This document shows positions 14,709 through 32,540 of a DNA stretch of 61,362 nt, piece by piece; position 1 is the stretch's first letter; each line of letters opens with the position of its first letter. The DNA lies in contig JAQVWG010000001.1 in the NCBI GenBank assembly GCA_028698585.1, forward strand, positions 184,200 to 245,561, read 5' to 3'. Under the pieces are notes generated by a model. It did not search any database, was not told where the DNA came from, and was given only the letters and a program-made list of their open reading frames with translations. This stretch comes from Clostridia bacterium. Its GTDB lineage: Bacteria; Bacillota; Clostridia; Christensenellales; CAG-314. The translations under genes were made by a program, and so were the position numbers.

Positions 14709-14737
14709 TTGACAGATAGCGCGTACCGTGATACAAT
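14709..14737 (+). promoter_or_regulatory. Strong promoter of riboswitch leader 1
   Basis: TTGACA (14709-14714), 17 bases, TACAAT (14732-14737). Predicted transcription starts near 14744, just before the c-di-GMP aptamer. Confidence 0.9.
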
Positions 14738-14747
14738 TCTAACAATG

Positions 14748-14816
14748 ATAGAAGCAAAACTGTCGTAAGGCAGTGACGCAAAGCTATAGGGTCTTATATT
14801 GAGACAGCCAGTTGCC
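14748..14816 (+). promoter_or_regulatory. Type I cyclic di-GMP riboswitch aptamer 1 (GEMM-I)
   Basis: The conserved GEMM-I core is present: 5' GAAGCAAAAC, a hairpin ACTGTC-GTAA-GGCAGT with GNRA loop, the invariant GACGCAAAGC, then TATAGGGTCT...AGACAGCCAG and the closing GTTGCC. The 3' closing strand runs directly into the 5' arm of terminator 1 (14814-14842). Aptamer closure and terminator formation should therefore exclude each other, which predicts that c-di-GMP turns expression on; this is an inference. Downstream are two giant surface proteins. Confidence 0.92.
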
Positions 14817-14849
14817 GTGATAAACACTCGTGTTTGTACGGCATTTTTT
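14814..14849 (+). terminator. Leader 1, terminator 1
   Basis: GCCGT...AAACAC-TC-GTGTTT...ACGGC hairpin followed by TTTTTT. Its 5' arm overlaps the aptamer closing strand. Confidence 0.9.
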
Positions 14850-14876
14850 ATCGGCTTAGGTGCAAGACAGCCAGTT

Positions 14877-14914
14877 ACCGTAATGACATAATAGTATTGT
14901 CTTGCGGTTTTTTT
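14877..14914 (+). terminator. Leader 1, terminator 2
   Basis: ACCGTAA-T-GACA...TGTC-TTGCGGT stem with one bulged T, then a run of seven T residues. Confidence 0.9.
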
Positions 14915-14947
14915 AACTGTCTGCATAATGATTAAGACAGCCAGTTG

Positions 14948-15000
14948 CCATTATAACACTGTTTACCAACAATGATGGGTAGTGTTACAATGGTTTTTTT
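14948..15000 (+). terminator. Leader 1, terminator 3
   Basis: CCATTATAACACT...AGTGTTACAATGG stem with a long loop, then TTTTTTT. Confidence 0.88.
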
Positions 15001-15066
15001 ATTGCTACTAATAGTATTGGCGTTGAGTCAAGTAGCAGTCAGTAACAATATAAAGGCAGAGGATTG

Positions 15067-18000
15067 ATGACTAAGCAAATGAGAAACAAGAGAATACTAA
15101 TAGCACTGTTATCGGCATTATTGTTGATGATAGTTTTTATTACTCCTGTTTTTGCTATACTTTTTTCCTCCATGGTGCCTATTGACTCTACACTTAATTA
15201 CCACGCCATATCTGCTGGCACTACCACATTCAGCGTCGAAGAGGTCGCCCAACAGGATTTAGTATACACTCAAGCTGGTCAGAGAATAGATGTTGACATT
15301 ACTCTCGCCAATGCTCAAACTGGTGGTATATATCATCATTACTATGGAATCAAAGTAGACAGTGCAACAAGCACAGGACTTGAGAATGCAATCCTAGTGT
15401 ATATGGATGGCATTTACATGGGTGTGCTGAGTGACCTATGCCCAATCATTGATAATGTGTCCATTGAAGGTATAATAGATAGGGATTATTACATATTGCC
15501 CAATGAGACATTGACTAAGACACTTTCTTTTGAACTGCATATAGGTGCTGATGCAAGTTACTTCGACACCAAGATATGTGGTATATCTATTACTAGTTAT
15601 GCCCAAACGACCAATGTACAGAAACTGATATTTGTCGGCAACGAGGATGAGTTCGCTTCGGCAATAGATGATATTAATCTGTCCGACACTCAGTCAAAAA
15701 CGCTCGTACTAACTAGCAATATAACCTTGACTGCAGATTATGTTCTAACCAAACCATGTATAATAGACCTATTCGGCAACGAGCTGAGTTTTGGCGAGCA
15801 CACCATAACACTTAACCAAAGCGGTAAAGTTACGTTAACATCATCAAGAGATATATTCGCACAAACAACGGATAGTGGTACGGGCGGGTTCGTGCTTAAT
15901 AGGGCAGACAGCACACAGAATGATATATTGACTCAGGGCGCTATACTTGATATGGTAGCCCAAACATTTATATATTCGACTGTCACCACCAAGTATACTC
16001 CTGCGCAGTTATATGCAGATAGAGTAACGTTGAATGCATACAGTATAACTGGCGCAAGAGAGTTAATTGCCCAGAGATTGGTCAGTAATTATAGTAACGG
16101 CATAGCTTCGACATCTAGCGTAGATATCTTCGACGGCATGACATATTATAGATTAGACACTGCCAATATGACAATAACCACTGACGGTAGTGCCAACTAC
16201 ACTGTCGCTAACGGTATATTGACTACTGCGACACTATCTCACACATCTATTAATACATTATTAATAGGTTCTACTAGCGTAGAGTTCAAGATAATAGGAA
16301 CAGGAAATGATACGACAATGGCAACTATACTTGCCAACGAGTTGAAACACATACCAAACAATCAATTAGCCGATGTGTCCTACGACCTATTCCTGCCTAC
16401 AGCATTAAAGCAATATAATTGCAGTATCGTCTGGACAAGCAGTAATCAAGAGTCTGTGTCAAATACTGGCAAACTTAGTAATACTGCTAATGGAGTCATT
16501 ACCTTAACGGCTACGATTAGGATTAATGATGAAGTTTTCATTCAACACTTCGTATTCACAGCCATAAGGCAGAATAACGAAACTCGTTTCCTGTACCTGT
16601 TGGCTCGTATGAATCCACGCTATCTCAGCGAGATATACGATGCAGAGGGTTCGGTTGACAGCCTGCCTATTGTTGACCTCAACTATAATTCTGCAGTACC
16701 TAGCAATACCCCTCTTGACTACAGGACTATATTCGCTGTTGATGACCTTGGAATCTACGGATTCGAGTATAGTATCGATCCCGCATATTATTATGTCGTA
16801 CTGGATGACGAGGATTCTAACGGGTATGTTAACGATATTTATCTCAATCAAGTAACATTCCAAGTCTATGCACAACTTAATGTCAAGGGATACTTCAGTG
16901 ATACGGCCACCTGGGGCACCGATGCCGAAGAATCATACTCTGGCTCCGTTGGTATCGTAATAGAATTAGGACAGAACACACAATTACAAGATTCAGTATT
17001 CAGTTACATTCAAACGCAACTGGACACTGTCGATATATTGCAGAACATAATTGATACAAGAATAGCAGACGGTATGTTGAATGAGAAAGGTGATTTTGTC
17101 ATGCCTGCATCATATATGGGATTTAACACAGAGTACAGCATACCGACCATACTCAACAGGCTTAACTCACTTGTTGTTGCCAAGAACGCAGGCGCAGAAG
17201 ATACCTATTACACTTCGTTGATAGGGTGGGCAATGAGTGCTAGCAGTAATGTATCTGCGAGCACAATAGTAAATGCTAGCCAATTGAACAACAGCGCAGA
17301 TGTTAACCTAGTTAATGATGGCAACGAAGATATATCTATTGATGAGGAAACAGTTATACTCAGTTATCTGTTGAAGAACGGCTATTATTCTGCCATTGCA
17401 GAATGGGGCAATTATGTTGAATCCAACGGCAATCGTTCTATTGCCGGAGATGCTGCCAACGGCATAATCTCGTCAGTGTCTAGCCTAATGACAGTTAGAC
17501 AATGGCTAGACAACATAGTGTTGGCATATAACGGCAATGTAGCGGATAATGACTATAATCTGCTGATTGACTGGGCAATCGGCTCAACTGCAGGCATTAG
17601 AGTGGAGGATATAGAGGGCTTGGTTGTCACTATACCCTCTATGTATCAGCCCGTGAGTAACACATATATCAGTGACGGACTTAATGCGGTATCCACAGCA
17701 GAACAAGAGATAATTCTGTGGTACTGCGACTCACAAGGCTACAATTCATACGCTTATTACTGGACTTCTGAGGTGGTTGACCACAGTAGGAGTCTTAACA
17801 CCGATGTATACATAATATCTATTGACGCCGAGCACTTATACATTCAAGATACCCTAGTACCCATAGATGTGACAGTACAGTTGGCTAGCCTAGAAGGCAG
17901 CACTGGCAGAGAAACAAGGGGTCTGTTCGTCAACACGCCGGGTGCCATTCATAATGATACCAATGGATTTAATGTTATGGAAGTATTCAACAGCGTCAAA

Positions 18001-20772
18001 CTACAGGTATGGCAACAACTACCTCTAAATGAGCAAAAAGGGCTCTACGCAACAGATAACAGCGCAGCAGTCAACATAACGACTTCTATGCTCAATCCTG
18101 CCAACTTGGGCAGTGATTACATACTACAAAGGGATATACAGCTTTGTCAAACACTGGTGTTTAGGAATGGTTCTCACGCAGATAGTTTCTACGCACTATT
18201 AAGCTGGGCAGTAAGTGCCACTAATCATACTATTCAGGTTAGAGATATTGTCAGTGAGGACATAATAGCCCAAATAGGAGCACTCGCAGACGTCTATTCT
18301 GATGGATTGACATATCTAGGCACCGAAGAACAGAGTGCAATACTCGCTGTCGTTCAAACCATGCTAAGTGACACAACAGGCGCTTATGATACGTTTATCA
18401 ATAGTGTGTGGGGCGCAACGGGTGGTGTGCCAGACGGCAACCTAGTACTGGATGACGCTTACATCGTTGACGCAGTTGACCTAGCAGAATTGCAAGATAT
18501 AGTTGAAAATACTACATTTACACTGAACAACTGGTCCGGATTTATTGACTGGGCAACTAGGACAAGCACTATTGGAGTTCGTGTAGGATTTGTTACTCTG
18601 CAAGTTGGTCACCATATTGATGACGTTGTTCCGGGTACGGTTAAGGCAGGTGGCACCCATGTGCGCCACGACATTCAATCAGTGATATCGCCTGGCAATT
18701 ATCCAGTGTCAGTTTATAGTTGGTTCTGGAGTATTAGTTACACCACTAACGAGCCTGACGTTATCAAATCATGCTTAATGGGTTATGCAAGCGGATTAGT
18801 GATGTATCATGCACTGGCAGGTGCAGCCTGGGACTACGTCGTTGCTAATGCCTCTAACTATTCAACAGCCATTACCGTTGCTTCTAATGGCGACATCACT
18901 GTAGTCGACAGCGGGCTTTTCGCTACGGCAGTGCAGAACAGAATCAAGTCGTTGATTGTAGATCAATACAGCAGATTGATTGGCTGGGCAACGAGTACGT
19001 CAAGTAGCACCCAGACGGCACGTGATATTGTTGGCTCATATATGGACGGAGTGTCGTATATGACTAATCTTCCCGACGGCAAGAGTACTATATCTATTGA
19101 TGAAGCCAACGCTATCAATAGTTTCTGCCAGTCTAATGGAATCAGTGGATATCAAACAGCATGGAATGGTCTGTTCGACAATGAAAGCAAGTCTACGTAT
19201 ATAGCAAGTGCAGAGGATATGGACAACATCTTGCTCGCTTATCCTACTCACGCATACTATTACACGGGCGTAGATACTGCCAATGCAGTCCAATACTCCA
19301 TAATGAGATATGATGATGTTCAACAGAGTTATGTTGCATATCTGGGTATAGATTACTTGAGTTCTGTAACCGATATGAATAATCAATTGACTGCTGACAA
19401 TGTAAATAAGTTCTACTACTATAACGGGTCCACTTCATCTCCATATACCAATGACCACGTTTACAGAGTAACGTACAATAGTGGTTCTTATGCAATGTAC
19501 GATATGGGCACTTTGGCTTCGGTACAAGGAAATGGAATGTACATAACCATTCCGTTATCTACTCAATCATCAATGGATGCCAATGCAGTTGCAGGCAACC
19601 TTGGGGTAGTCTATAAGTACACAGGTACCACCACAACAACAGGCAATATATATGAGAACGGCCAGTATTATGTGATAGCCTATGACGAAATGCAATCTAT
19701 TTACCGTGCAGTCAAAGTAGCTACAGTCAGTGACCATTTGGTTGTTGATTACTTCGGCTATATCAAGTTCACAGGTGGGTCATCAGGTAATTACACTAAC
19801 AACGTTATCTATAAGATATTGCGCTCTTACGACTCTATTAATAATCGCTACATCAACCAGTACATCATGGCATCTGCTCAGGTAAACGAGTTCAAGAGTG
19901 GCGCTAGGGAGAGTATTAATGATTACGTCTCTGGGATACTTGACACAGGCTCTCAAGAAGAGTTGTTACTGCTAGAAGACGCATACTTGAATGGTGAACA
20001 ACTTACTGACCTTTACTATCCCTATCTACTCAATCTAGATAGTACAACAACGGGTATGAATTACTTCGTCAACCTTAGAAGGCTTACATTAGCTGGCTCG
20101 AGTTCGGAAATGAGGATGTTTTCTAATGCCCCTAAAGCCAAATACTTTTTTAACGCTCTGACAACACACAACATTCAACTGCAAGTGTTGGAAATGGTTT
20201 ACTGTAATTTGACAGATATATCAACGCTGGGTTCACTGGTCAATTTGACACATTTAGACCTGAGTAATAACGCTGATATATCCAACATTAGTTCTATTAG
20301 CGATTTGAGTGTTGAGAATCTGGCTTATCTTGATATATATGGGCTCAATATAGACTTCAATGTAGAACAGCCCAAGTTGGCAAACGTTTACTTCGCATAC
20401 TATGAAGAACATGGTCAGTACCCCAGTATATACTATGCTGACAGTAGTTCAATTAAACAACTATATAGCACCACGCTAACACAGGAGCAAATCAACATCC
20501 TAACCAGTCTATTCTATCTCAAGGAAATAGGCACAATCAACGCACCCCGTATGTATCTAACACAGACAGTTTATGTGTCTGCTACTGAGTATTACACTAT
20601 AACTTGGACGGTGGTCAGTGGTAACGTTACAATCAACTCAGCTGGTGCTAACTGGTACATTGTTAACGGCAGTTACGGTGGTGCAACATCATACGCAGTT
20701 GTAAGGGCAAGTATAACGGACATCAATAGCTACACATACCACAGAGATTTTTTGGTATCACTTGGTAGCTAA
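15067..20772 (+). CDS. Giant secreted repeat protein with aBig-like, WA-repeat, LRR and C-terminal domains
   Basis: About 1901 residues. A basic N-terminus and a hydrophobic segment ending PVFA form a signal peptide. An atrophied bacterial Ig-like domain lies at about 430-500 (FLPTALKQYNCSIVWTSSN). Residues about 710-1370 contain five imperfect repeats beginning LIxWAxSxS (near 715, 832, 1042, 1158, 1302), most followed by an S-x-(D/E)E helix and a GY..Y...W segment. Residues about 1382-1604 hold four YYYTG...Y-NG..Y-V units. Leucine-rich repeats lie at about 1700-1765, and a beta-rich domain ends the protein. No LPXTG anchor is present. It is the first gene behind riboswitch 1. ATG at 15067 follows AGAGG; a TTG three bases earlier is less likely. 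Probably an adhesin or matrix protein; the ligand is unknown. Confidence 0.8.
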   Translation: MTKQMRNKRILIALLSALLLMIVFITPVFAILFSSMVPIDSTLNYHAISAGTTTFSVEEVAQQDLVYTQAGQRIDVDITLANAQTGGIYHHYYGIKVDSATSTGLENAILVYMDGIYMGVLSDLCPIIDNVSIEGIIDRDYYILPNETLTKTLSFELHIGADASYFDTKICGISITSYAQTTNVQKLIFVGNEDEFASAIDDINLSDTQSKTLVLTSNITLTADYVLTKPCIIDLFGNELSFGEHTITLNQSGKVTLTSSRDIFAQTTDSGTGGFVLNRADSTQNDILTQGAILDMVAQTFIYSTVTTKYTPAQLYADRVTLNAYSITGARELIAQRLVSNYSNGIASTSSVDIFDGMTYYRLDTANMTITTDGSANYTVANGILTTATLSHTSINTLLIGSTSVEFKIIGTGNDTTMATILANELKHIPNNQLADVSYDLFLPTALKQYNCSIVWTSSNQESVSNTGKLSNTANGVITLTATIRINDEVFIQHFVFTAIRQNNETRFLYLLARMNPRYLSEIYDAEGSVDSLPIVDLNYNSAVPSNTPLDYRTIFAVDDLGIYGFEYSIDPAYYYVVLDDEDSNGYVNDIYLNQVTFQVYAQLNVKGYFSDTATWGTDAEESYSGSVGIVIELGQNTQLQDSVFSYIQTQLDTVDILQNIIDTRIADGMLNEKGDFVMPASYMGFNTEYSIPTILNRLNSLVVAKNAGAEDTYYTSLIGWAMSASSNVSASTIVNASQLNNSADVNLVNDGNEDISIDEETVILSYLLKNGYYSAIAEWGNYVESNGNRSIAGDAANGIISSVSSLMTVRQWLDNIVLAYNGNVADNDYNLLIDWAIGSTAGIRVEDIEGLVVTIPSMYQPVSNTYISDGLNAVSTAEQEIILWYCDSQGYNSYAYYWTSEVVDHSRSLNTDVYIISIDAEHLYIQDTLVPIDVTVQLASLEGSTGRETRGLFVNTPGAIHNDTNGFNVMEVFNSVKLQVWQQLPLNEQKGLYATDNSAAVNITTSMLNPANLGSDYILQRDIQLCQTLVFRNGSHADSFYALLSWAVSATNHTIQVRDIVSEDIIAQIGALADVYSDGLTYLGTEEQSAILAVVQTMLSDTTGAYDTFINSVWGATGGVPDGNLVLDDAYIVDAVDLAELQDIVENTTFTLNNWSGFIDWATRTSTIGVRVGFVTLQVGHHIDDVVPGTVKAGGTHVRHDIQSVISPGNYPVSVYSWFWSISYTTNEPDVIKSCLMGYASGLVMYHALAGAAWDYVVANASNYSTAITVASNGDITVVDSGLFATAVQNRIKSLIVDQYSRLIGWATSTSSSTQTARDIVGSYMDGVSYMTNLPDGKSTISIDEANAINSFCQSNGISGYQTAWNGLFDNESKSTYIASAEDMDNILLAYPTHAYYYTGVDTANAVQYSIMRYDDVQQSYVAYLGIDYLSSVTDMNNQLTADNVNKFYYYNGSTSSPYTNDHVYRVTYNSGSYAMYDMGTLASVQGNGMYITIPLSTQSSMDANAVAGNLGVVYKYTGTTTTTGNIYENGQYYVIAYDEMQSIYRAVKVATVSDHLVVDYFGYIKFTGGSSGNYTNNVIYKILRSYDSINNRYINQYIMASAQVNEFKSGARESINDYVSGILDTGSQEELLLLEDAYLNGEQLTDLYYPYLLNLDSTTTGMNYFVNLRRLTLAGSSSEMRMFSNAPKAKYFFNALTTHNIQLQVLEMVYCNLTDISTLGSLVNLTHLDLSNNADISNISSISDLSVENLAYLDIYGLNIDFNVEQPKLANVYFAYYEEHGQYPSIYYADSSSIKQLYSTTLTQEQINILTSLFYLKEIGTINAPRMYLTQTVYVSATEYYTITWTVVSGNVTINSAGANWYIVNGSYGGATSYAVVRASITDINSYTYHRDFLVSLGS

Positions 20773-26862: not shown

Positions 26863-26928
26863 GGGCAAACTTATCGCAAGGTAAGGACGCAAAACTATAG
26901 GGGCTTGTAATATAGCCAGCCAGTTGCT
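26863..26928 (+). promoter_or_regulatory. Type I cyclic di-GMP riboswitch aptamer 2 (GEMM-I)
   Basis: GGGCAAA, hairpin CTTATC-GCAA-GGTAAG with GNRA loop, GGACGCAAAAC, TATAGGGGCTTG...GCCAGCCAG and closing TTGC match GEMM-I. One core base differs from the usual GACGCAAAGC. The closing strand abuts terminator 1 (26926-), the same layout as the first riboswitch, again predicting c-di-GMP-dependent readthrough. It controls the WLEG-motif protein genes. Confidence 0.92.
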
Positions 26929-27062: not shown

Positions 27063-27115
27063 AAGTCACTAACCGCAGGAAGAATGATGAACGTATCTGT
27101 GCAGTGACTTTTTTT
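27063..27115 (+). terminator. Leader 2, terminator 2
   Basis: AAGTCACT...AGTGACTT stem with a 32-base loop, followed by TTTTTTT. Confidence 0.82.
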
Positions 27116-27141
27116 GATTAGTAGGGTGTAACTGAGTTGAG

Positions 27142-27187
27142 AAGTCGTTGAGCAGGCGTAATGGGGCCCCTGCGAGCGACTTTTTTT
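27142..27187 (+). terminator. Leader 2, terminator 3
   Basis: AAGTCGTT-GA-GCAGG...CCTGC-GAGCGACTT with an internal loop, then seven T. Its outer arms resemble those of terminator 2, suggesting diverged copies. Both lie before the first gene of the unit. Confidence 0.85.
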
Positions 27188-27233
27188 GTACAACTAAGTT
27201 ACAACGGACGAGATGATGTGGTGAAGTGGTATG

Positions 27234-28045: not shown

Positions 28046-29113
28046 ATGAAAAACAGTAAAAGAATTATAGCTATGTTAGTAGCATTAGTACTGACAATCG
28101 CTATGGCAACAACTACAACATTCGCATGGTTCGTAGTTGGTAACGAAGTGGATGTTGACGCAATCAACGTAACAGTATCAGCTGATGGTGGCTTATTCAT
28201 CTCCGACTCCGCTGACGGTGTCTATAAACAGTACTTGGCACTGAACGAGTCAGTTGCATTCGATGCTTGTACACCTGTTATGAATGGTCTAACTGCATTC
28301 GCAAGTAAGCCATACACAAGATACGCAACAGCAACAGAGTGGGGTGCATTAGATCCAGCCACAGAAGAACAATCTAAGTGGGAACTCAACCCCGCACTAG
28401 ACGCTTATAGAGATGCAGACGAAGCATATTATTACTCAACTACCGCTACTAGCGGTGGACAAGCATTTAGTGCTACAGAACTAACGGCAGTTGCTTCGTA
28501 TAAGTATATGCAGACAGTTGTAAGTGATTCCCTCGTTGTTCCTAACAACATTGACTTTACTAATGATACAGCCGCTCGCTACTATTATGACGAGTTCTTC
28601 TTCAAGTCAACTGAGCTGAAGACAGTGTATCTCAAATCGGTAACATTGAGCGTACCCGGTGGCACACCACTAACAATCAACACGCCTGAAGGATTAGCTG
28701 CAGACGAGTTTGGTACTGGTTCACCAGCATATGCTGTTGATCAAGCAGTTACTGCCGATGTAAGAGATGCTATTAGAGTTGCATTGTTCACATCTGACGG
28801 TACATTAGTAGGCGTATATAAGTTCGACCAAGGAACACAAGATTGGGCTGACGTAGCAAATGCTCAAGGCTATAACCTAGCAGAAGAGTTATATGTTCAA
28901 CACACTAATGGCGCTCCAGCAATCCTGCACGGACAGACATTTACCGCTAGTACTATTGGCTCAGGCGTATCTGCAGGTGCTCTAACTGGTAGTGGAACTA
29001 ACTGGTCAGGTAGTTGTTCAGTTATCGTATGGCTAGAAGGTACGGACGGTCACTGTATTAACAACCTTATCTCCCAAACAGTATCTATCGACTTTACTTT
29101 CGAAGGCAGATAA
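28046..29113 (+). CDS. WLEG-motif secreted protein 2 (SipW-type signal)
   Basis: 355 residues. MKNSKRIIAMLVALVL... then TTFAWFVVGNEVDVDA is a clear SipW-dependent signal peptide. The mature protein begins with a TasA-like strand pair (DVDAINVTVSADGGLFIS). The middle is acidic and Ala/Thr-rich. The C-terminal third has FFFKSTELKTVYLKSV, then DAIRVALF and YKFDQG, and finally VIWLEGTDGHCINN with one conserved cysteine. It has the best ribosome-binding site of the set (GGAGG, seven bases) and may be the most abundant subunit. Codon use is regular. By analogy with TasA/camelysin it could be a fibre-forming subunit; this is inference. Confidence 0.8.
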   Translation: MKNSKRIIAMLVALVLTIAMATTTTFAWFVVGNEVDVDAINVTVSADGGLFISDSADGVYKQYLALNESVAFDACTPVMNGLTAFASKPYTRYATATEWGALDPATEEQSKWELNPALDAYRDADEAYYYSTTATSGGQAFSATELTAVASYKYMQTVVSDSLVVPNNIDFTNDTAARYYYDEFFFKSTELKTVYLKSVTLSVPGGTPLTINTPEGLAADEFGTGSPAYAVDQAVTADVRDAIRVALFTSDGTLVGVYKFDQGTQDWADVANAQGYNLAEELYVQHTNGAPAILHGQTFTASTIGSGVSAGALTGSGTNWSGSCSVIVWLEGTDGHCINNLISQTVSIDFTFEGR

Positions 29114-29157
29114 TCTCTAATAGAATTATCAAGATAAGCACATTTTGTCCTTACATA

Positions 29158-29192
29158 CATCCCCTGCTTACGATTATGGTAGGCGGGGGATG
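29158..29192 (+). other. Strong intercistronic hairpin without T run
   Basis: CATCCCCTGCTTAC pairs with GTAGGCGGGGGATG over 14 bp with two G-T pairs, between the second and third WLEG genes. No T run follows, so it is more likely an mRNA processing or stability element than a terminator. It could make the upstream message more abundant. Confidence 0.7.
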
Positions 29193-29230
29193 GCGGACAC
29201 CATAAATTGATATAAGGAGAATCAATTAAT

Positions 29231-30445
29231 ATGACTAAGAGCAAAAGAATTATATTGACGCTGGCAACTATAGTGATTACTATCGCACTTGCAACGTCAG
29301 CTACATTTGCTTGGTTTGCACTCAACACCGAAGTATTCGTAGATGGAATCAATATCACTATAGAGTCTAGCGAAGGATTGACAGTATCGGTCAATGATAC
29401 TACATATGATTTAACCGTTAATGCCGCTATAACTAAGACTCTAGAGAACGTAACCCCTAAACTAACTACAGTTAAGTATTATAAAGACGCTAATGCCAAT
29501 GGTATATATGACGATGGAACCGACACTGAAGTTACAGACGCTGTCAATACTCTTATGAGTGACTATGAGACATATATGACTGGAAGAGCCCTTACATATG
29601 ACTTCTTTGACGTGTCTACTGGTAAATATTACCAAGATACTGATAGTGACGGCGTACTTAACGCAGAAGCCGATGCCGAAGTTACCGCTACAGTTAAGGC
29701 ATATGATGACACTAACTCATGTTTACCTGCTCGCAGAGGATTTGATTTTGATTTCGTTGTTTATGCAGATGCAGATTGGGATACCGGTTATGAGTTTACT
29801 ACGCTTAACGGCTACACCCTAGGTGATGCACTAACTGACAGTGTTGACAATCCTTGGATAACTCAGAAGGTGTACTTCAGTTCAGATATACCGATGAGAG
29901 TATTCTTAACAGATATACTTATCTCTAGCGTTGTCAATGGCACCGACACTACAACTCCTATTGATATTGCAGCCGGCACCGTTGATAATCAAGATACATT
30001 GATTAATGCAGATGATTCCATTACTGCTGACATTAAGGCAGCTATACGTATTGCACTATTTGACGAGACTGATACATTGATTACTGTTCTGCGTTATGTT
30101 GACGGCGAATGGGAAGATGTTGCTGGCAACGGTAAGATTAACATGGCAGCATATCTATACAACATCAAGACGGGCAGAATATCAAATGTACTTAATGGCG
30201 TACACGACTATGACGCTATCCAAGAGGACAATAGTGCAGAGATAACCGAGTCTACATTGTGGGACAGGAATGCTCCTATATACATAGGCGAGACAGGTGA
30301 TAAATCTTCAAGCGCATCTGAGTACAAGACAGAAGTTACCCTAGTTATATGGCTAGAAGGTAAAGACGGTGACTGTCTAGACAGTATTATCGATGATAGC
30401 GCAATAGTAAGTCTACACTTTACAGGTGACGAAAATATGGATTAA
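29231..30445 (+). CDS. WLEG-motif secreted protein 3 (SipW-type signal)
   Basis: 404 residues. MTKSKRIILTLATIVITIAL..., then ATFAWFALNTEVFVDG is a SipW-dependent signal almost identical in layout to the neighbours. The mature part has two insertions with calcium-loop-like spacing (DANANGIYDDGTDTE and DTDSDGVLNAEADAE), reminiscent of dockerin-type or thrombospondin type 3 Ca-binding loops. The C-terminal family core follows: KVYFSSDIPMRVFL, AIRIALFDETDTLI, and VIWLEGKDGDCLDS. AAGGAG precedes the ATG. Co-transcribed with its relatives. Ca2+ binding is a prediction from residue pattern only. Confidence 0.8.
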   Translation: MTKSKRIILTLATIVITIALATSATFAWFALNTEVFVDGINITIESSEGLTVSVNDTTYDLTVNAAITKTLENVTPKLTTVKYYKDANANGIYDDGTDTEVTDAVNTLMSDYETYMTGRALTYDFFDVSTGKYYQDTDSDGVLNAEADAEVTATVKAYDDTNSCLPARRGFDFDFVVYADADWDTGYEFTTLNGYTLGDALTDSVDNPWITQKVYFSSDIPMRVFLTDILISSVVNGTDTTTPIDIAAGTVDNQDTLINADDSITADIKAAIRIALFDETDTLITVLRYVDGEWEDVAGNGKINMAAYLYNIKTGRISNVLNGVHDYDAIQEDNSAEITESTLWDRNAPIYIGETGDKSSSASEYKTEVTLVIWLEGKDGDCLDSIIDDSAIVSLHFTGDENMD

Positions 30446-30484
30446 TTCCATATAATTAAGCTTATACTTATTACGTAACAATCA

Positions 30485-31630
30485 ATGATTAAGAGCAAGA
30501 GAATTATCTTAATACTCACCTCTCTGCTGATAACTGTCGCAATAGCAACCACCACCACGTTTGCGTGGTTTGCAGTTAATTCGCAGGCATACCTTGATGG
30601 CATTAGGCTAGAGCTGGAGACTGGAGCGGGACTATATATCTCGTCTAACGGGATAGGCAACTTCGATAGTCATACCTTAGACCTCAATTATACCCTCGAT
30701 AATCCTTTTGCATTAACTGCAGTCACGCCTAAGATGTCTGTAGTCAAGTATCTGCTGGGCGCAGTAGATGTAACTGCAGATATAGAAGATATGATTGCTC
30801 TATGCAACATCGCCAAGACCAACTATGATAATGCCTATGATGTGTTTGATGTTAACACCGGCACATATTGGATTGGACAGGTAGGAACGGGCACCGACGT
30901 TACTGCAGTGTGCGTTGGATATCTAGTAGAGATAGAGAATAATACTCCTACTCGTGGGCAAGATTTCGATACCATAGAATATACCGACAAAGACTGGGAT
31001 ACAACCAGTTATGCATTCGTAGATATGCATGGTTTTGCAATGGGCAATGCGCTAGACTCTGGCAACGGCTGGCTGGTGCAAGACATTTACTTCAGGTCAG
31101 AATCACCAATGCTGGTTGTCCTCGAAAACATAGTTATATCGGGAGTAGCGCTAGGAACACAACCTGTTAAGACTCCTGTGATAATTGATGCAGACGAGGT
31201 GGCTGGAGTCGACACGGACATACCTGCCCATACTGAGATAAATGGTGATATAGAAGCAGTTATAAGAGTAGCTTTTTTTGATAGCGCCAACCAACTAATT
31301 AAGGTATACCGTGTCAATCAAGGAAGATGGGTAGAGGAAGCAGGCTTAATCAATATGGCTGGCTTTCTCTACAATAATCCCTATGATGCGTATCCAAGCA
31401 ACACCATGGGTGCTGACAATATCGCAGAGATAAACGAGGTTGCAGAAGGCAATTTCGCAGATACCAATCTAACTCTGCTAAGAGACGCAGTTAACGGTGA
31501 TTATCGCGGAATGTTGACAATGGTTATATGGCTAGAAGGTAAGGACGGAGATTGTTTGAACAGTATACTGGACGATTATGCTCAAGTGTACGTAGACTTT
31601 GCCGGCATAGAGATTAATATCAACCCCTAG
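30485..31630 (+). CDS. WLEG-motif secreted protein 4 (SipW-type signal)
   Basis: 381 residues. MIKSKRIILILTSLLITVAI..., TTFAWFAVNSQAYLDG is a SipW-dependent signal. The family core is DIYFRSESPMLVVL, AVIRVAFFDSANQLIKVYR and MVIWLEGKDGDCLNS, closest to protein 3 (also IEYTDKDWDT against VYADADWDT), so the pair is a tandem gene duplication. No good ribosome-binding site precedes the ATG, so translation may be low. Last member before the third promoter of the locus. Confidence 0.8.
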   Translation: MIKSKRIILILTSLLITVAIATTTTFAWFAVNSQAYLDGIRLELETGAGLYISSNGIGNFDSHTLDLNYTLDNPFALTAVTPKMSVVKYLLGAVDVTADIEDMIALCNIAKTNYDNAYDVFDVNTGTYWIGQVGTGTDVTAVCVGYLVEIENNTPTRGQDFDTIEYTDKDWDTTSYAFVDMHGFAMGNALDSGNGWLVQDIYFRSESPMLVVLENIVISGVALGTQPVKTPVIIDADEVAGVDTDIPAHTEINGDIEAVIRVAFFDSANQLIKVYRVNQGRWVEEAGLINMAGFLYNNPYDAYPSNTMGADNIAEINEVAEGNFADTNLTLLRDAVNGDYRGMLTMVIWLEGKDGDCLNSILDDYAQVYVDFAGIEININP

Positions 31631-31677
31631 AAATGCTCATAATTGGACTATGCGGTGTACAAGTTTGTTTAATAGTA

Positions 31678-31707
31678 TTGACAAACTAGCACATATTAAT
31701 GTAGTAT
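31678..31707 (+). promoter_or_regulatory. Promoter of the peptidase/AAA+/EAL unit
   Basis: TTGACA (31678-31683), 18-base spacer, TAGTAT (31702-31707). A leader of about 110 nt follows with no riboswitch that I recognise. This unit seems not to be directly riboswitch-gated unless transcription reads through from the WLEG genes; no terminator separates them. Confidence 0.7.
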
Positions 31708-31823
31708 CTAACTGTGATGGATAGTTTACGAGCACTGTACTGCGCCTTATTGGCTCAGTATATCGTTACTAGTTATTTTTACTCAAATCTATATACTAAG
31801 ATGTACTTAGGAAGGAACAGATA

Positions 31824-32540
31824 ATGAAAAAAATGACCAAACAACAGATAATCAATATATGTATTGATGTGTTATGTGCAGTATTGTGTATAGTATTACT
31901 GTATTCTGCAATCAGCCTACTAGCTAACCGTTATGTAAGTTGGTTTGGTAAACTGAGATTGGGTGTCGAGAGCGACTCTATGACCACTCTTGACGGCCAA
32001 GTAGCGAAGGAGTTTTCTTTTGACAGAGGGGACTTAATTGTCATTGATATATGCAACGACAATGAGATAAGTCAATTACAAGAGGGTGATGTAATCACTT
32101 TTTGGGGCGCTGTCGACGGAGTTGAAGCCATGATAACTCACCGTATCACTTCCATAAGATATAGTGAGGACAACACCATAGACGCATTCCAGACTCAAGG
32201 TGATAAGGCGCTCGGTACTAATACATACGAGAATGTTACCCCTGATAAAGTCATAGGTAAGGTTGTCAAGGTAGTAGTTGGTGGGGGCGGATTCGCACTG
32301 TTCAGGTCATCTCAACTGGGCAGATTCATACTGACAGTTATCCCATCAGTGCTTATTGTTGCTTATTTTGCAGTGTTGTTCGTGGTTACGTTGCGCAAGA
32401 GCAGAACGGATAAACAATCTGCAGAAATGGATGATATGAGGCGCCAACTAGTAGAATTACAGACTAAGGTGGCTCAACAGAATGCTCAATCTCAACCGAA
32501 TGAAGAAGAGCATACAGCACAACAGGAAGACAAGGAATAG
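31824..32540 (+). CDS. sipW: SipW/ER-type signal peptidase I (first copy)
   Basis: 238 residues. An N-terminal membrane helix (about 11-33) is followed by the catalytic Ser52 in ESDSM and His106 in ITHRITS. This is the Ser-His arrangement of ER/archaeal-type signal peptidases such as Bacillus SipW, not the Ser-Lys type. A QGDK segment (about 127-130) corresponds to the family GDxN region. A second hydrophobic helix lies at about 165-190, and the tail is Gln/Glu-rich and probably coiled. It should cleave the FAWF/YAYF signal peptides encoded just upstream. AGGAAGG precedes the ATG. First gene of its unit. Confidence 0.88.
   Translation: MKKMTKQQIINICIDVLCAVLCIVLLYSAISLLANRYVSWFGKLRLGVESDSMTTLDGQVAKEFSFDRGDLIVIDICNDNEISQLQEGDVITFWGAVDGVEAMITHRITSIRYSEDNTIDAFQTQGDKALGTNTYENVTPDKVIGKVVKVVVGGGGFALFRSSQLGRFILTVIPSVLIVAYFAVLFVVTLRKSRTDKQSAEMDDMRRQLVELQTKVAQQNAQSQPNEEEHTAQQEDKE

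Follow-up and report, generated by a model that had tools for sequence, protein, structure and literature searches.

Tandem riboswitches sharpen their response by repeating the whole sensor, and T-box leaders couple a single sensor region to output modules that are repeated in the form of partly duplicated antiterminator and terminator parts; the T-box sensor reads tRNA, unlike that of a cyclic-dinucleotide leader. Among GEMM-I riboswitches, that of pilM in Geobacter metallireducens is an ON switch whose terminator was measured to sequester the ligand-pairing C (PMC9262584), and the Bc1 c-di-GMP-I riboswitch of Bacillus thuringiensis has a dual terminator, the second of which masks the ligand response (PMC11218506). 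Here, a window of 61,362 nucleotides, i.e., the whole stretch of DNA that was analyzed, was taken from a genome (G000) of 1.49 Mb in 16 contigs. It holds a GEMM-I leader with one sensor and three closing strands, and this layout is real.

The earlier note had asked whether a covariance-model scan would return one match or three. It returned one, a GEMM-I (c-di-GMP-I, RF01051) aptamer closed by the first strand copy at 14743..14819 (+ strand; cmscan, 62.9 bits as compared to the 35-bit gathering cut-off), which spans the full model from 1 to 87. With this single Rfam match the leader contains one complete aptamer and is not a tandem riboswitch by the criterion of at least two aptamers; three separate annotated aptamers were rejected for the same reason, and a second GACGCAAA 5' half, looked for between the copies by sequence and with Rfam, was not found. 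Assignment of the aptamer positions by hand onto Vc2 numbering placed A20 at 14753, A47 at 14780 and the 5' strand of P3 at 14782-14794 (all + strand). Both A47 and C92 (14815, and likewise in copies 2 and 3) are present, and position 20 is A, so that the c-di-GMP-selective G (Vc2 G20) is absent. In P3, 114 of 140 GEMM-I leaders possess the CTAA strand of a tetraloop receptor; the aptamer at 14743-14819 and six others that were checked in the family (together L001, L002, L011, L020, L021, L025 and L030) are without it. Upstream lies a promoter (14709..14737, + strand; TTGACA-17-TACAAT with TG ahead of the -10, 11/12 consensus) that is strong as judged from its hexamers. Its predicted transcription start at ~14744 is the first base of the GEMM-I aptamer, and a by-eye reading places similar hexamers directly 5' of the aptamer, in the same place, in the orthologous leaders of G003 and G001. 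Because transcription is predicted to begin at the aptamer, P1 would comprise at most ~4 pairs in this leader; P3 alone is weak (-5.2 kcal/mol).

The 3' strand of this aptamer, AGACAGCCAGTT(G/A)CC, had been reported to occur three times, and exact matches were indeed obtained at 14802, 14865 and 14935, although the repeated element, described as the 3' half, is better defined as the 3' strand of P3 together with J1/3 and the first P1 nucleotide. Copy 1 (AGACAGCCAGTTGCC, 14802..14816, + strand) carries C92 at 14815 and C93 at 14816, copy 2 reads AGACAGCCAGTTACC (14865..14879, + strand) and copy 3, identified by pattern match, is again AGACAGCCAGTTGCC (14935..14949, + strand). When up to two mismatches were allowed, the window contained four matches, three of them within 150 bases and the fourth in another riboswitch at 26914; none of 100 dinucleotide shuffles of the window reached four (mean 0.14), and the repetition of the closing strand is more than chance. 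The conserved block consists of the P3-pairing strand and the ligand-pairing C92, most of which is dispensable for the terminators. Since the three units are identical at 14-15/15 positions within the closing strand and at no more than 45% elsewhere (best ungapped register), with identity ending sharply at the 5' edge of the strand, the portion that pairs in P3 and is not required by the terminators was evidently kept. The change of G to A in copy 2, by contrast with what had been expected, need not weaken it, because the sole copy in the orthologous G001 leader has exactly the same sequence; ACC is found at this place in 10 of 140 GEMM-I leaders.

All copies form duplexes of about equal energy with the 5' half (-4.9 to -5.3 kcal/mol). 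Base-pairing energy was rejected as proof of pairing, given that ~31-36% of random 15-mers from the window reach an equally good duplex energy with the 5' strand of P3, and the evidence for the copies is therefore their sequence conservation. The equal energies would also be in line with strands 2 and 3 being mere pairing competitors that draw the 5' half away from earlier copies, for instance to capture leaked transcripts, without checking the ligand themselves. We regard this as very improbable, as both strands are transcribed after the decision at the first terminator and hence cannot affect it, and as the conserved positions include the bulged AG as well as the ligand-pairing C, neither of which would be required for pairing competition alone. 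The notion that any of the copies could serve to close the one aptamer is supported by the strand being exactly conserved and by the existence of an orthologous leader with two units.

Every copy runs into a terminator consisting of a hairpin and a U-tract, as had been noted before: T1 with U6 (14813..14849, + strand, -14.2 kcal/mol, lower stem aligned across units), T2 (14877..14914, + strand, -12.1 kcal/mol) and T3 (14947..15000, + strand, -16.1 kcal/mol). The 5' arm of each terminator includes the ligand-pocket nucleotides C92 and C93 of its own copy, and for this reason terminator and liganded aptamer would be mutually exclusive. A strict consensus scan, requiring an unbroken stem and a loop of at most 8, reported none of T1, T2 and T3, probably because these criteria do not fit bulged hairpins; support for the three comes from folding, from the U6-U7 tracts and from comparison of the units. 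Across eight units of the family, pairing in the lower stem of the terminators amounts to 92.5%, as compared to 17-58% when it is slid, and two-sided changes occur in 2 of 5 pairs among these only eight sequences, a small sample in which 29 of 500 column shuffles reached the covariation score. In the minimum-energy fold after T1, the 5' end of the aptamer, GAUAGAA (14747-14753), pairs with the U-tract of T1 (~14844-14852), which possibly represents a hindrance to re-closing.

The first regulated gene (15064..20772, + strand) codes for a predicted secreted or surface protein of 1902 aa with aBig_2 and with LRR_4 just below the cut-off. Orthologues stand behind the same leader type in two other genera, and leader orthology was judged from the identity of the gene behind: in G003 (41%) leader L020 has two units, and in G001 (42%), a third genus, leader L030 has one. 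The G003 units are near-identical 53-base neighbours without an aptamer remnant between them, which argues for a duplication of the unit itself and a recent one, whereas the spacers between the G000 units have diverged, so that the duplication there looks older. It could be argued that the array derives from complete tandem riboswitches whose 5' halves were lost and that it is now decaying, as tandems are common in GEMM-I, with 347 doublets (PMC9481103), and the family itself contains full tandem GEMM-I aptamers (G001 contig C153 and G005 contig C51). Decay would not, however, spare the same 15 bases twice, and together with the structure of the G003 units this makes such an origin improbable.

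In a survey of 140 GEMM-I leaders, which was free of any single strand sequence and covered fewer genomes and, outside the family, mostly high-scoring matches, only G000 and G003 showed repetition of the strand in the absence of another 5' half. L015, which was flagged in this repeat survey, was rejected as a full tandem aptamer. Pattern scans for one strand type (AGCC-RGNT), which would miss other types, gave no true case outside the family in 396 genomes of the order or in 391 genomes of the class; a match in G295 was due to chance and lacked a GEMM-I 5' half. Likewise, none of 27 pattern matches in viral contigs had a GEMM-I 5' half upstream, including L084 (minus strand), where tandem terminator-like units (GAAACGCTTTTGCGT.GTTTTTATTCAGTAAGC) were seen. 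A protein search of genome contigs with the neighbouring peptidase returned relatives and had no bearing on the leader. The layout of one sensor with a repeated closing strand is rare, and it is probably under selection.

The gene behind the leader heads a surface-protein cluster, the products of which include putative secreted proteins that have aBig_2 domains and matches to LRR, and several proteins with TTTFAWF-type signal peptides. A signal-peptidase-like protein at 31824 was recognized by eye, with no Pfam match above the cut-off. The run of TTTFAWF-type secreted proteins at 28046-32540, which ends in this protein, resembles SipW/TasA-type matrix modules. This context is consistent with control of surface or matrix proteins by a cyclic dinucleotide. 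The cluster contains a second GEMM-I riboswitch (RF03167, 26855-26932) with G at position 20 and one closing strand, and 3' of it lie two extra U-tailed hairpins without a closing strand (27063-27112 and 27137-27188). Two additional terminators are likewise present in L011, the orthologous leader of G003. Degenerate closing strands behind the second riboswitch were considered and rejected, the best match of 11/15 (L011) being within the shuffled range.

With regard to the ligand, G at position 20 was described to select c-di-GMP and A to select c-AMP-GMP (PMC9481103), and G20A was also tied to the GEMM-Ib (3',3'-cGAMP) class (PMC6274999); moreover, cGAMP-type aptamers are said to bind c-di-GMP too in work that is cited in PMC9262584. 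The earlier designation as a c-di-GMP aptamer stands as regards the GEMM-I family, and is uncertain as regards the ligand because A replaces the nucleotide that discriminates between ligands (Vc2 G20). On sequence grounds, A20 points to a 3',3'-cGAMP-type or dual-specificity aptamer. This nucleotide occurs in 18 of the 135 leaders read and is shared by the three orthologous leaders, including those of G003 and G001, and in the other riboswitch of the cluster the position is occupied by G, in G000 as well as in G003. Nine GGDEF matches were found in G000, and those with an intact signature all carry the canonical D at the specificity residue, which distinguishes hybrid enzymes. A family search of G000, G001 and G003 found no synthase of the SMODS/DncV type, other synthase types being possible. 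Because the GGDEF domains with an intact signature are canonical and this synthase was not found, c-di-GMP read at lower affinity is our leading guess.

Concerning the mechanism, we give about even weight to a GEMM-I cyclic-dinucleotide ON riboswitch in which the sensor is single, the platform is multiplied and the 5' half re-closes for each unit. One 5' half (5' strand of P1, P2 and 5' strand of P3) would serve three units of closing strand and terminator. Most likely the leader acts as an ON switch, in which ligand bound at a unit would occupy C92 and C93 of that unit and its terminator would fail. Once RNA polymerase has passed T1, the same 5' half may re-close on unit 2 and then on unit 3, and folding of T1 behind the polymerase could trap copy 1 and aid this re-closure downstream. 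We suggest, as a tentative possibility, that the sensor re-reads the ligand in a proofreading-like manner, the 5' half being handed from strand to strand and binding again before each terminator. Read-through would then need ligand at successive steps, so that leak would be very low and the response steep. Since P3 alone is weak, exchange of closing strands in the absence of ligand should be fast; with ligand bound, exchange would be limited by ligand release. For ligand-bound GEMM aptamers half-lives of 25-190 s were reported, and completing P1 raises affinity 43-fold (PMC9262584). The hand-over would demand ligand exchange in seconds, which the short P1 and A20 could supply; a ligand lifetime of seconds in this leader is plausible given that P1 has at most ~4 pairs.

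The consequences were estimated with a coarse stochastic kinetic model based on assumed rates (kon 1e6 /M/s, 30 nt/s and 90% termination with the hairpin formed). At release rates of 0.005-0.03 /s read-through of the three-unit leader was never above 2%, whereas at 0.3-3 /s it amounted to 17-37% at 100 uM ligand, with an OFF leak of ~0.1% as compared to ~9% for one unit. According to the model, movement of the single 5' half from unit to unit would work only if the ligand leaves within seconds, and lifetimes of 25-190 s would therefore make T2 and T3 simple blocks. Of the serial reading proposed in the earlier note, the anatomy is upheld, and the three checks would need fast ligand exchange, as the published lifetimes leave no more than 2% read-through in the model; serial checking is possible in terms of the modelled rates. 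The long published lifetimes and the model speak for T1 alone being ligand-controlled and for T2 and T3 being duplicated, ligand-independent back-ups, which would result in strong, near-constant attenuation as in Bc1, where T2 masks the ligand response of T1 (PMC11218506). By analogy with T2 of Bc1, it is plausible that T2 and T3 merely block, and the second riboswitch of the cluster has extra terminators, which lack closing strands, in both G000 and G003. Back-ups, however, would give no reason for the exact P3 strand AGACAGCCAGTT in copies 2 and 3 amid changed surroundings, nor would they explain the strand repeat in a second genus (G003); as a full account of the leader, we regard ligand-independent back-ups as less likely than not.

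Repetition of closing strand and terminator alone costs ~55-70 bases per added step. If the hand-over works, the leader would represent a natural and space-saving way of controlling a costly surface-protein operon steeply and with low leak, and would offer a direct test of strand exchange by a liganded aptamer during transcription; if it does not, stacked attenuation with closing strands still conserved would itself need explanation. As compared to tandem (pseudo-cooperative) c-di-GMP-I riboswitches such as Bc3-5, for which serial ligand-controlled terminators were likewise proposed, the leader has a single 5' half in place of complete aptamers, and the review table, in the part used here, lists no class with a single 5' half (PMC4759541, PMC9481103). 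Like Bc1, it has at least two intrinsic terminators behind a single GEMM-I aptamer, but here each terminator has its own copy of the closing strand, a repeat that is not described in the portion of the Bc1 report considered (PMC11218506). The pilM cGAMP/GEMM-I riboswitch resembles it in its cGAMP-type pocket, where A is the discriminating nucleotide, and in both the terminator incorporates the ligand-pairing C of the closing strand, aptamer and terminator being mutually exclusive; unlike this leader, pilM has one closing strand, one terminator and a longer P1 (PMC9262584).
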